Origin: Synechococcus sp. AG-683-C23
Lineage (GTDB): Bacteria > Cyanobacteriota > Cyanobacteriia > PCC-6307 > Cyanobiaceae
Reading direction: 5' to 3'
Length of the DNA: 64,000 bases
NCBI GenBank assembly: GCA_003208835.1
Contig: QCVD01000003.1
Coordinates: 1 to 64,000 of the forward strand
Shown here piece by piece: positions 32,315 through 56,356 of the stretch. A model generated the notes under the pieces. The model did no database searches, was not told where the DNA came from, and was given only the letters and a program-made list of their open reading frames with translations. Every line of letters starts with the position of its first letter. Within the stretch, counting starts at the first letter, position 1. The position numbers and the translations under genes are program-made.

Positions 32315-32401
32315 TCGGCTAACGTCGGGTAAGGTCTACGCCTATCCAATCATTAATAAAAGCCAGAGCTCTCTTCAATCACATTAAAATATCAACTTTA
32401 G

Positions 32402-32673
32402 ATGAAACCAAACCGCTTTTAATAATCTTTTTTTACCTTTGTTTCATAGGGTTAAATCCAACATCGACCGAAGCTCTCGAGGATTGCCAGCTCATCAACA
32501 AGGTTTTTTCAAATCTCGGCAGAAGCATGAGCAGACATCGATTAATCATCGTGCAGGGGGGCGATCCAACCATCGTCGATGAAGCCAGTCGAGCCCTCTC
32601 GAATGAGACCAAGATCTACAGAAATGCAAAACGTGAATACGAAAAAGCTCATTGCGACGGTTGGCAGAGGTAG
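32402..32673 (+). pseudogene. Small secreted protein with early frameshift
   Basis: ATG 32402 opens a frame that hits TAA after six codons (CGC TTT TAA). With one more T in that T4 tract it would read MKPNRFLIIFFYLCFIGL, a signal peptide ending near TSTEA, then EDCQLINKVFSNLGRSM and on to a stop at 32671-32673 (about 90 aa). The length 272 is one short of a multiple of three, as expected. An internal ATG at 32527 could still give a 48-aa cytoplasmic fragment. Confidence 0.55.
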
Positions 32674-32752
32674 TAGCAGTTGTAATCAGTCGATGCGTTC
32701 GAAACAAAAAGGATCTCTTGCTCCAATAATGGGCTGATTCACGCGAAAGACC

Positions 32753-33121
32753 ATGGGATCGAAAACGAACCTGACGCTTGTGAGAGGTGCACAAGTCATG
32801 GCCATCGCCCTCTTAGTCTTTGTGGCCTATACGTCCACCCTGGGATTCCTCAAGCAAAAAAAAATAGATCTGTATGACATGGAGCAAAAGCAAAAGATCC
32901 GTCCCAGGCCGAAGGTCAATCACCCCAATCAATGGCCACCCAAGCCAAATGACAACGTTGACCCCAATCTGAAGTCAAAGCCACCATCAACGGAGCAAAC
33001 GACAAAACCCAAAGAGATCGACTCCAACGAAAGCAAGGCAGAACAACAGCAGGGCCGACAAGGCTGCTCGACACCTCCAGGTGGTGGACCTCCTGTCACT
33101 TCAGATTTCGGACCCTGCTGA
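32753..33121 (+). CDS. Membrane-anchored proline-rich protein
   Basis: 122 aa. One N-terminal anchor (VMAIALLVFVAYTSTLGFL) then a low-complexity, Pro/Lys-rich linker (RPRPKVNHPNQWPPKPND and similar) and a C-terminal Cys/Gly/Pro tail ending DFGPC. Looks like a periplasmic, disordered stalk with two cysteines. No family recognised. Confidence 0.6.
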   Translation: MGSKTNLTLVRGAQVMAIALLVFVAYTSTLGFLKQKKIDLYDMEQKQKIRPRPKVNHPNQWPPKPNDNVDPNLKSKPPSTEQTTKPKEIDSNESKAEQQQGRQGCSTPPGGGPPVTSDFGPC

Positions 33122-33270
33122 GTTGCCGAACGTTTGTCGACAATCCATCATTTCATCGGGCTTTTAGGCGTTTGTGCTCTTTTCTACACCGTCAGGCGAA
33201 GCTAGACCATGGGAGTCGAGAGCAATCGTCGCTCGGCGATTCACCAGCAGGAAACCTGCACAACCAACCG

Positions 33271-33549
33271 ATGGGGGTTGAAATGTTAGGTGCGTTAGTT
33301 GTTCCAGCTTTGAAACCAGGTGATCTTGTGCTGGTCGAGCCCAGTGGCCCAAGTCCTGAAGAGTCTTCAACGGAATGGTGGATTGGCTGGATTATGCAGC
33401 CAGAGGGATCGGCAGCTATCGCGGTTGGATCAAACAACACATTTCAAGCAAGCGACTGTGAAACGGGTCAACTGCGCTCGGTCAAGGGAGATGAAGCAAC
33501 ACGACTCGTTTTGTCCGGCATCAACTCAACTCTGAAGCAACTCATTTAA
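33271..33549 (+). CDS. DUF3104 family protein
   Basis: About 92 aa (ATG 33271; 33283 is an alternative). LKPGDLVLVEPSG, WWIGWIMQPEGSA and NNTFQASDCETGQLRSV match the DUF3104 family of marine picocyanobacteria, a small beta-rich domain. Function unknown. Longer in-frame start at 33172 adds unlike residues. Confidence 0.75.
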   Translation: MGVEMLGALVVPALKPGDLVLVEPSGPSPEESSTEWWIGWIMQPEGSAAIAVGSNNTFQASDCETGQLRSVKGDEATRLVLSGINSTLKQLI

Positions 33550-33654
33550 TCGAAATCCTGATCCATCTCACGAGATGCATCGCGCTTAGCCAGCCATACA
33601 CACGAACCCAAAACCCACTAGCACCACTCACTTCTCAACAGGCCAATAGCCTTA

Positions 33655-33808
33655 TCGCCACAGCTCTCCACAGGTCGGTGGAAAACACGAGCTGATTTAG
33701 TAAGTCGACTTTTGGCGAGAAGCCTTGCAGGAACAGGTCCCTCCGATTAAGCTGTGGATATCCCCATCACTCGGCCAGCAGGAATGCTGGCTTTTTTATT
33801 GGCAATTT
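33655..33808 (+). ncRNA. Putative structured RNA with intrinsic terminator
   Basis: No coding frame fits here. A closing stem pairs CCACAGCT (around 33658-33666) with AGCTGTGG (around 33750-33758). Inside are further complementary pieces, including TCCAC/GGTGG, TCGG/CCGA and a GGC-GAGA-AGCC hairpin. About 20 nt later comes a strong terminator, GCCAGCA-GGAA-TGCTGGC followed by TTTTTT. The layout (closed stem, branched middle, terminator) suggests an independent small RNA. I could not match it to 6S, SRP or Yfr families. Confidence 0.45.
33773..33798 (+). terminator. Rho-independent terminator
   Basis: Perfect 7-bp stem GCCAGCA/TGCTGGC with a GGAA tetraloop and a T6 run. It is too far from DUF3104 (about 225 bp) to be that gene's only likely terminator and fits an RNA gene in the gap. 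Confidence 0.8.
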
Positions 33809-34060
33809 CTTAAGGACGCGCGTCGAGCTGCATAGCGATCAATTCATAGACGGCCAGATATTCAGTCCTCAGAAAGTTTCCTCATCCTCAGGCCGTTGCC
33901 TTTCGATCAAAGTTAGTGGAAGACCAAAAACATAATCACCAACAAAAGACAAACATCAACTTGAATACTCCTAAAAACGGTATTCCTACAATCTCAAATT
34001 GATTTAATCCTTACAAGGCTTAGGGAGATACAACAAAACAATCTTTAATCAATTCTCGTC

Positions 34061-34165
34061 TCAATCCCTTTTCGTCTTCGATCGCTCAAACAAAGAAGCA
34101 AATGCAAACGAGATGCTGATCGCTATCGATGCACCAATACAGACAATCCCAAGTTCAATGGACAT
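34061..34165 (-). CDS. Tiny single-helix membrane protein
   Basis: 34 aa: a short N-terminus, one hydrophobic helix (LGIVCIGASIAISISFAFA) and a basic tail (FERSKTKRD). Size and layout resemble small photosystem or cytochrome subunits, but the sequence matches none I know (PsaM, PetM, Psb30, PsbX). The only frame in the 33.8-34.3 kb gap that looks coding. Confidence 0.45.
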   Translation of the reverse strand: MSIELGIVCIGASIAISISFAFASLFERSKTKRD

Positions 34166-34340
34166 CGATTATTCCAAAAATACTGATTGTGGTCATGATG
34201 AAAAGTACTGACCTCCAGAACCGAAGAGCGGCGACGACCCAGCGTCTAAGGGGACCGCTCTTGAGTTCAAAACCCAATCCCGCTTAAGGTGATGATTCAT
34301 TGATGGGTCATCACTGTTGCTCGGGTCCTGGCAGGTGCTG

Positions 34341-34550
34341 ATGCGATGCGTGGCGAGCGCCCTCTTTTTAGTGGCCCATGGTTTGCTCGTGCTCGAGCAC
34401 ATTGCGATTGGAACAGCTCTGCATGGAATAGCAGAACTTTTTCTAGCCCCGTGGGCAATCCGGCATAGAGCCTGGGACCTCATCATCATTGGACTCATTT
34501 TCTGTGTGTTTGACCTCTGGGGGACAGTACGACTTGTTGGGGTGGCGTAA
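34341..34550 (+). CDS. Small two- or three-helix membrane protein
   Basis: 69 aa from ATG 34341 (TTG 34317 would give 77). Helices VASALFLVAHGLLVLEHIAIG, a middle ALHGIAELFLAPWAI and a final LIIIGLIFCVFDLWG. Probably an inner-membrane protein. No family recognised. Confidence 0.55.
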   Translation: MRCVASALFLVAHGLLVLEHIAIGTALHGIAELFLAPWAIRHRAWDLIIIGLIFCVFDLWGTVRLVGVA

Positions 34551-34565
34551 GTCTTAGAGATTGTC

Positions 34566-34676
34566 TCAACCCTGAATCTGGGGGAGCCAAAAACCGAGGA
34601 GCTGCCACGACGACCAAAGAAAAATCGCTAAAAAAACCCAGTTCAACCAGGCAGGACGTTGATCGTTTTCAAACAT
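34566..34676 (-). CDS. Tiny aromatic membrane protein
   Basis: 36 aa: polar start MFENDQRP then a Trp-rich hydrophobic helix (WLNWVFLAIFLWSSWQLLGF) and a short tail. It starts inside the last codons of the next gene upstream (34669-35055), an 8-nt overlap suggesting coupling. Confidence 0.45.
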   Translation of the reverse strand: MFENDQRPAWLNWVFLAIFLWSSWQLLGFWLPQIQG

Positions 34677-35055
34677 GTGCGGAAGCAGCTACATCACTAT
34701 ATCGGCCTTGTACATGTCTAAACATCGGAATAACCAAGAGTATGGCCATACCGCCGCTTCCAGTCAGAAACCATACAAGACGAGTGCTACTTACAGCAGG
34801 TAATTCCTCACAGAAAACTGTCATCAGTAATCCCCAAACGAGAAATGCTGTTGCAAAAGCCAGTATTAAATCAGAAATTGGATGCAATAAAAATGCATTT
34901 AATAGCCCTAAGACTAGAGTATCACAACTGATCCAACGATTACGCTGGCGGAATCGCTTGGCACGGTGAATCACCGAGAAACGATCTGAAAGCAAAATAT
35001 GACTTGCTAGCACAACTGTGAACAAAACTCCATGCAGAACCCCCGCAATAATCAA
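34669..35055 (-). CDS. Four-helix membrane protein, unknown
   Basis: 128 aa with about four hydrophobic helices (VLHGVLFTVVLASHILL; LVLGLLNAFLLHPI; LILAFATAFLVWGLLMTVF; GSGGMAILLVIPMF). A basic loop after the first helix suggests cytoplasmic exposure. No family recognised. Confidence 0.55.
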   Translation of the reverse strand: MIIAGVLHGVLFTVVLASHILLSDRFSVIHRAKRFRQRNRWISCDTLVLGLLNAFLLHPISDLILAFATAFLVWGLLMTVFCEELPAVSSTRLVWFLTGSGGMAILLVIPMFRHVQGRYSDVAASAHV

Positions 35056-35112
35056 GGAAGGCAGTAAACAAGCATAAAAATAATTAATGGCAGAAAAACT
35101 ACTTAGATGGAG

Positions 35113-35307
35113 CTATGACGAGATCGAAGACAAAGACGTTAGACGTTGGGCCAAAATATCAACACTAAAGACTACTAAACTCCCTAAAAGTACGACAAAA
35201 AACAATAGAGCTTCAACCAAATAGATAGGCGTGTAAGCAATCACACCGATCTTCTCAGATAATTCACTGCCACCACTTACGAGTTCGGGAAGAGGATGGA
35301 CAAACAC
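35113..35307 (-). CDS. Small single-helix membrane protein
   Basis: 64 aa: about 28 polar residues, then one long hydrophobic helix (YLVEALLFFVVLLGSLVVFSV) and a short Ser-rich tail. Minus strand, about 57 bp upstream of the four-helix protein, possibly in the same unit. Confidence 0.45.
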   Translation of the reverse strand: MFVHPLPELVSGGSELSEKIGVIAYTPIYLVEALLFFVVLLGSLVVFSVDILAQRLTSLSSISS

Positions 35308-35346
35308 ATACGCAAAACCTGCACCTCCACCAATAGAGGTTTATTA

Positions 35347-35442
35347 TTACTGCTGTGTATCAGATTGAGATGCCAAAACAACCGCATACCAGTTGCATGA
35401 GGCGATAACCAACAGACAAATAGCGGCAACAAATAAGATCAA
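35347..35442 (-). CDS. Tiny membrane protein, TTG start
   Basis: 31 aa or slightly longer: LILFVAAICLLVIASCNWYA is a clean membrane helix followed by VVLASQSDTQQ. The start is TTG, or an ATT three codons earlier; neither is strong. Included because the helix and tail look protein-like. Confidence 0.3.
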   Translation of the reverse strand: MILFVAAICLLVIASCNWYAVVLASQSDTQQ

Positions 35443-56313: not shown

Positions 56314-56356
56314 CCCCACTCCCCGCAAAGCCTGTGCTCACAATGTATCGCTCAAT

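Follow-up and report, generated by a model that had tools for sequence, protein, structure and literature searches.

A probable small-RNA gene of marine picocyanobacteria whose conserved C-rich motif is antisense to a sigma-factor start site

Introduction

Marine Synechococcus and Prochlorococcus are leading phototrophs of the ocean. The excerpts available of its source describe Yfr103 as the single most abundant ncRNA in cultures of MIT9313, with an enigmatic function, and as a set of seven paralogues of 290-328 nt in Synechococcus CC9605, which together account for 55.2% of the mdRNA-seq reads of that strain (PMC5069720). The same excerpts mention an imperfect palindrome between -29 and -58 relative to the Yfr103 start site and report that Yfr103-type RNA dominates the Synechococcus reads in one sea sample (PMC5069720). 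A second point of comparison is offered by Yfr1 and Yfr10, cyanobacterial small RNAs that, according to the parts of the sources consulted, carry the common motif ACUCCUCACAC (PMC6778093; PMC2518516).

The locus considered here lies in a stretch of 64,000 nucleotides from Synechococcus sp. AG-683-C23 (contig QCVD01000003.1), referred to below as the window. A preliminary description, made from the letters of this stretch, had proposed a possible undescribed small RNA with its own terminator at 33600-33810, built around an 8-bp closing stem. Comparison with related genomes indicates that 33556-33797 most likely holds a genuine small-RNA gene, conserved among marine picocyanobacteria (Table 1), and the core of its C-rich motif is antisense to the start-codon region of a group-2 sigma-factor gene.

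Extent and neighbours of the probable RNA gene

The stretch 33600-33810 sits just 3′ of the gene for a DUF3104 protein, a neighbour that had been named correctly at the outset, as its Pfam match shows (Table 1). Three syntenic copies were compared, those of the window and of genomes G089 and G242. Their three-way identity is 94% at 33751-33800 and drops to 0-30% in the comparison intervals from 33801 to 34025, values that partly reflect alignment gaps. Because the identity of the orthologues falls so sharply past 33800, the 3′ end of the RNA is likely to lie near 33797. The three orthologues contain no open stretch longer than 52 codons. The candidate -10 box reads TTTAAT, TTTAAT and TCTAAT in the three copies, and a promoter scan of 32400-35400 listed none on the plus strand.

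Table 1. Coordinates of the features at the small-RNA locus, in positions of the window.
Feature	Position	Strand	Basis and remarks
Upstream gene, DUF3104 protein	33172..33549	+	Pfam PF11302, E=3.8e-8; longest frame taken
Candidate -10 box, TTTAAT; overlaps the stop codon of the DUF3104 gene	33545..33550	+	By eye; inferred, weak
Probable small-RNA gene	33556..33797	+	Orthologue conservation and model R1 match; 3′ end likely, 5′ end uncertain
Possible remnant of a decayed 5′ motif, GATCCATCTCAC compared with GATCCCCATCAC	33560..33571	+	By eye; suggestive only
Conserved block CTAGCACCACTCACTTCTCAACAGG	33618..33642	+	Near-identical in three orthologues
Hairpin UCCAC/GUGGA, 33667-33671 with 33678-33682	33667..33682	+	All pairs in 12/14 rows
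Alternative long-range stem, UCCACAG 33667-33673 with CUGUGGA 33752-33758	33667..33758	+	14/14 rows
C-rich motif AUCCCCAUCACUC, conserved; predicted seed for pairing	33760..33772	+	Invariant core, predicted unpaired, antisense match
Intrinsic terminator: 8-pair hairpin, GGAA loop, T-run	33773..33797	+	Sequence and 14-row alignment

Terminator and folds

The strong tetraloop terminator of the preliminary description holds up well. Its hairpin (33773-33792) has a predicted energy of -13.6 kcal/mol and runs into a T-run at 33792-33797; seven of the eight pairs are kept in 14/14 aligned rows, and the innermost one (33780/33785) in 3/14. Two pairs are changed on both sides, from A-U to G-C at 33777/33788 and from G-C to C-G at 33778/33787, and both of these double changes amount to a single 3-against-11 clade split. 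Compensatory changes in relatives, which had been named as a check on the initial proposal, are thus found in the terminator stem but not in the closing stem.

The closing stem is indeed present in the sequence (CCACAGCU at 33658-33665 with AGCUGUGG at 33750-33757), but all eight of its pairs occur in 1/14 rows, that of the window alone, and when the 211 bases are shuffled, 18% of the shuffled sequences also contain a perfect 8-bp stem. It was discarded as a conserved fold, being no better than chance in this respect, as was the MFE stem CAGCUC/GAGCUG, which is intact in the window alone among the 14 rows; the fold proposed at the outset is not conserved in this alignment. The alternative long-range stem UCCACAG/CUGUGGA is without covariation support and proves little, because it is almost invariant across the rows. 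With regard to folding stability, the z-scores against shuffles (-1.14 for 33600-33810; -1.28 for 33556-33798 with plain shuffles) suggest a region only slightly more stable than its shuffled counterparts, with a whole fold that is not unusual.

Conservation of the locus

It is conservation that marks the locus as more than a chance arrangement. When 251 family genomes were searched at the DNA level, 14 of the 16 others of the same genus proved to have related sequence, in 12 cases only as short pieces of 24-57 bases, mostly around the 3′ motif. A covariance model of picocyanobacterial relatives, as suggested in the preliminary description, was built from 11 sequences with the clade of the window excluded (R1), and it still matches the window at 33662-33803 (E=1e-14). 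Among 34 genus genomes, R1 has one match of at least 60 bits in each of 18, of which 11 had supplied the model and 7 had not. The proposal of a small RNA with its own terminator is therefore supported by conservation that ends at the terminator, by the R1 match and by relatives in most genus genomes searched.

A search of the window against Rfam 15 gave no family at the gathering score beyond a tRNA, and one of 33500-33850 gave none at E<=1. The RNA copies in 15 other loci had no match either; the single family returned for those loci was an unrelated Glutamine-II riboswitch (RF01704) at L042:4619-4680, some 1.3 kb downstream from the RNA of genome G207.

A several-copy family with a shared motif

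Members of the family share the sequence UCCCCAUCACYYGGC ahead of the terminator, and the fuller members have a second copy near the 5′ end; the motif core is invariant in the family alignments. An exact 15-mer of the motif (TCCCCATCACYYGGC) occurs in 32/34 genus genomes and in 199/300 family genomes, compared with 0/34 and 3/300 for the reversed control, and most genus genomes hold several copies of the motif. The fuller copies mostly consist of a TATAAA-like box, a 5′ domain, a middle part and the 3′ motif with the terminator, wherein the 5′ domain runs from a closing stem through an A-run and a hairpin to the motif. Twelve such copies measure 244-280 nt from the inferred start to the T-run.

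The 5′-domain model, R2, matches 119/300 family genomes at E<=0.01, many of them weakly, and finds no 5′ domain in the window's own genome, which is 77% complete. Among 20 stretches around R2 matches, CCCCATCAC is present twice in 12, a thirteenth has a variant second copy, six contain one motif copy and one contains none. The stretches with two copies include genomes that we take to be NATL2A and MED4. Structural evidence for the 5′ domain lends it modest support. RNAalifold placed 3 pairs on a first alignment. In alignment A6, comprising 9 of the 14 rows chosen because the hairpin fell in one register, 84% of cells are paired versus 82% in shuffles (reached by 33/500 shuffles), 4 pairs have changes on both sides (reached by 40/500), and sliding the pairing out of register leaves 35-47% paired. 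Alignment A4 omits the copy of genome G147 (L037) as too divergent.

Based on these family comparisons of the 5′ and 3′ parts, the window locus is a diverged and somewhat decayed member of a several-copy picocyanobacterial RNA family, one that has kept the 3′ motif and terminator and has, at best, a decayed 5′ motif. The candidate for the latter (Table 1) stands at approximately the same place as the intact 5′ motif in relatives, which in most of them precedes the 3′ motif by 204 nt.

In the relatives' loci read, the RNA subtype of the window has other neighbour genes, and no DUF3104 relative was found near the same subtype in other clades (L031-L042). A cis attenuator of the downstream gene was rejected, since the neighbours differ between the window clade and the other loci read. 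A DnaA-box cluster, suggested by TTATCCACA-like words in some relatives, was likewise dropped because the hairpin of the window is without such words yet keeps its stem, and a phage origin was rejected after no match was found in phage records.

The motif also occurs in other settings. Together with a hairpin and a T-run, it precedes the trpD start codon by about 10 nt (TIGR01245; motif in the window's own genome at G000:C24:2472-2486, minus strand; L073, about 1540-1590). Elements of similar sequence are also present in Cyanobium-like genomes, and the element may be a trpD leader attenuator that carries the motif. Distant genera feature pairs of motifs on opposite strands (L079, L084, L111, L304, L306, L308), with a terminator after one motif of each pair; where positions are listed, the spacing is about 115-118 bp. 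Judged by eye, a palindromic word like CACCAGATNTGGTG recurs within the RNAs and past their terminators (L037, L082, L096, L102). A separate repeat around CCCCATCACCT is found in G216:C1 near 960746, 1287454 and 1583931 (L225, L229, L231), two of its copies being identical over the bases compared.

The motif core is antisense to a sigma-factor start site

One RpoD-type group-2 sigma factor (TIGR02997; Pfam sigma-70 regions 1.2 to 4) has a gene whose sequence around the start codon, GGGUGAUGGGG, is antisense to the core of the motif. In G216, which we take to be CC9605, the pattern CCCCATCACCY matches 25 places, 12 of them within loci of these RNAs or of related elements and 13 elsewhere; among the latter, one falls on a start codon, with GGGTGATGGGG lying over the AUG of the sigma-70 gene. 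None of six further places read in G242 is on a start codon, and the match recurs at the start of the sigma gene in 7/7 genomes of this search.

Two sets of sigma loci were read. The first was chosen by homology, with 50 loci read from 52 genomes that have a sigma orthologue, and in 48/50 of them GGGTGATGGGG is exact over the start codon, with variation in the more distant bases; the remaining two start with GTG (GGGTGTGGGG). The sigma gene of the window's own genome (L262) has the exact site, and ten sigma paralogue loci have candidate starts without it. For the second set, 30 genomes were picked, 22 without and 8 with the exact motif. A locus was obtained from 29, and the exact site is present in 8/29, corresponding to 4/8 with the motif and 4/21 without. 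By hand count over both sets (79 loci), the exact site is found in most of the motif-bearing genomes read, namely 47/53 with the exact 15-mer, and in 9/26 without it, an association across genomes that is confounded by ancestry. Three of the nine site-bearing genomes without the exact 15-mer carry an RNA with a variant motif. The six of 53 motif-bearing genomes without the exact site are G171, G030, G081, G158, G048 and G018, the last two of which miss it by one mismatch.

Across the 48 site-bearing loci (sigma orthologues among L243-L291), which are the only ones that the column table of start regions covers, the bases around the start codon are near-invariant, including the synonymous positions +5 and +14. 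The sigma start of the window's own genome is predicted to form a hairpin whose loop is GGGG and whose apex holds the start codon, the A and U of the codon being paired and the G in the loop. A similar start hairpin is predicted at 42/58 sites scored in the 50 loci, some of which matched more than once.

From position alone, in a genome that we take to be MED4, this sigma gene is probably PMM1697. In the portions of the sources available, PMM1697 is up-regulated by nitrogen depletion (PMC2758279), and all five MED4 sigma genes cycle daily (PMC2663038).

Predicted pairing energies and accessibility

Pairing energies were compared with those of 408 background start regions, which are mechanical ORF starts from the window and 14 loci and not annotated genes. 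The 18-nt window motif is predicted to pair with the sigma start of the window's own genome at -25.2 kcal/mol (background mean -9.8), and the canonical motif with this same start at -29.0 kcal/mol (background mean -11.1). Start regions as good number 1/408 for the window motif and 0/408 for the canonical one, and shuffled motifs as good number 2/2000 and 0/2000, respectively. The sole better background for the window motif, at -26.6, is a different start region on the minus strand of the window, at 56319. With respect to accessibility, the window motif is predicted to be unpaired at 0.94, versus 0.51 for the whole RNA; the motif copies in 8 fuller RNAs, at 0.29-0.82, are less clear.

When the opening of both folds is charged, the predicted energy at the sigma site is -14.6 for 33740-33798, with 6/408 backgrounds at least as good, and -15.1 for the whole RNA, with 32/408 at least as good; a canonical copy with its own sigma reaches -15.9 (7/150). 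An unconstrained whole-length duplex was abandoned as a target test because it is uninformative, 67/96 background starts being at least as good. By the folding-charged energies the sigma site would be a good but not unique partner, with only moderate specificity. Pairing of the RNA with the sigma start is therefore plausible, not proven, since the energies are good yet not unique once folding is charged.

Proposed mechanism and its alternatives

The reading we prefer, at a little under even chances, is that 33556-33797 gives rise to a trans-acting RNA whose C-rich segment pairs with the start of the sigma mRNA and blocks or tunes its translation. The RNA would end at its own intrinsic terminator and, just before it, would expose the unpaired C-rich segment AUCCCCAUCAC, which would pair with the translation start CCAGGGUGAUGGGGAUCCCUCUGG of the RpoD-type group-2 sigma mRNA. 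The pairing site would be the start codon at the apex of the predicted GGGG-loop hairpin, so that pairing would cover the AUG and translation would be blocked or tuned, and the task would be divided among paralogues that bear this motif. Transcription of the window copy, the sigma pairing and its effect are what we infer from sequence. Among the observations that count against this reading are the window copy being without an intact 5′ domain and the motif sitting in other transcripts too, such as a trpD leader. More tentatively, and with the odds clearly against it, one may imagine a several-copy RNA family found throughout the picocyanobacteria, possibly Yfr103, that controls one group-2 sigma factor via start-codon pairing, with its copies and the motif in other transcripts (trpD leader) tying those transcripts to the sigma level. 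The contact would then join the GGGG apex of a conserved mRNA start hairpin to a C-rich part of the RNA that is open or looped.

It is unlikely, although by no means negligible, that the RNA is instead a very abundant structural or protein-binding RNA, as its being Yfr103 would suggest, with C-rich loops that bind a protein or serve as a sponge and with the sigma match as a secondary contact. Several motif copies in most genus genomes would fit such a role, as would the 6/53 motif-bearing genomes without the exact sigma site. The Yfr103 paralogues, at 55.2% of CC9605 reads in the excerpts of their source, also exceed what one mRNA seems to need (PMC5069720). Taken alone, however, this explanation does not account for an antisense sequence kept over one start codon in 48/50 loci of the first set. 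A different alternative takes the window copy not as an independent gene but as the tail of the DUF3104 transcript, made up of its 3′ UTR and terminator and possibly trimmed to a stable 3′ fragment, which would agree with a start right past the stop codon at 33549, with the lack of a listed plus-strand promoter and with an arrangement common to three orthologues. We regard it as improbable, given that the same RNA subtype has other neighbours in other clades (L031-L042) and that the internal conserved blocks exceed the needs of a terminator.

The remaining explanations carry far less weight. Since duplex DNA does not distinguish a sequence from its antisense, a regulator could bind the motif as a DNA site both in the RNA genes and at the sigma gene. 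Yet the motif lies directly before terminators, inside the proposed transcripts or over a start codon, and not at promoter positions, which makes this reading very improbable. A comparison with 6S RNA models had been suggested at the outset, and the size class and a long stem do speak for 6S RNA, although the size class is all that it has in common with this locus. The 6S model (RF00013) finds its gene at 104 bits on a different contig of this genome and has no match here, nor does any other Rfam family, and the identification was rejected as almost certainly wrong.

The relation of the RNA motif core to the sigma-factor start site would be a new link, and a limited literature search found no earlier connection of this RNA to a sigma factor. 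The antisense match gives these RNAs a testable purpose. If the family is Yfr103, the match offers a concrete, testable target for an abundant RNA with an enigmatic function; if it is another family, it is one without a match in Rfam 15.

Comparison with described RNAs

The RNAs Yfr8-Yfr21 of MED4 were rejected as counterparts, none of them being tabulated at 348.8 kb, where a family member sits in the genome that we take to be MED4; the table gives no places for Yfr1-Yfr7. We put the chance that this RNA family is Yfr103 at about one half. Genomes that bear the family include those that we take to be CC9605, CC9902, WH8109, WH7803, CC9311, KORDI-49, KORDI-52, KORDI-100 and NATL2A. As far as the excerpts of its source go, this distribution would roughly fit that of Yfr103, which also has several paralogues in marine Synechococcus. 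In contrast, the family is also found in the genomes presumed to be MED4 and MIT9515. These two strains are absent from the strain list in the excerpts, which names Synechococcus and low-light Prochlorococcus strains (PMC5069720). As for copy number, G216 has 9 exact 15-mers at 7 separate places, two of which are of other types (a convergent pair and a trpD-leader-like element), and one more two-motif place, at 534.6 kb, was seen only with a shorter pattern. Two of the 12 measured copies are in G216 and span 259 and 244 nt from the inferred start to the T-run. The range of 244-280 nt for all 12, which depends on inferred starts, is a poor fit to the 290-328 nt given for Yfr103 in the excerpts (PMC5069720). 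Palindromes upstream of family copies, judged by eye, were not convincing in all. Thus, the initial label of an undescribed RNA stands insofar as Rfam 15 has no match, but it is doubtful, as the family may be the one described in the available excerpts as Yfr103 (PMC5069720).

In its design, the family resembles Yfr1 and Yfr10 as portrayed in the consulted parts of their sources, in that several RNAs present one short unpaired C-rich motif for pairing (PMC6778093; PMC2518516). It differs from them in its motif, AUCCCCAUCAC, in its predicted target, in the two motif copies of its fuller members and in having no Rfam match, and the Yfr1/Yfr10 motif was not seen on reading 33556-33797. Set beside trans-acting base-pairing small RNAs in general, the RNA has its own terminator by sequence and, by prediction, an accessible conserved seed and a conserved complementary target site.
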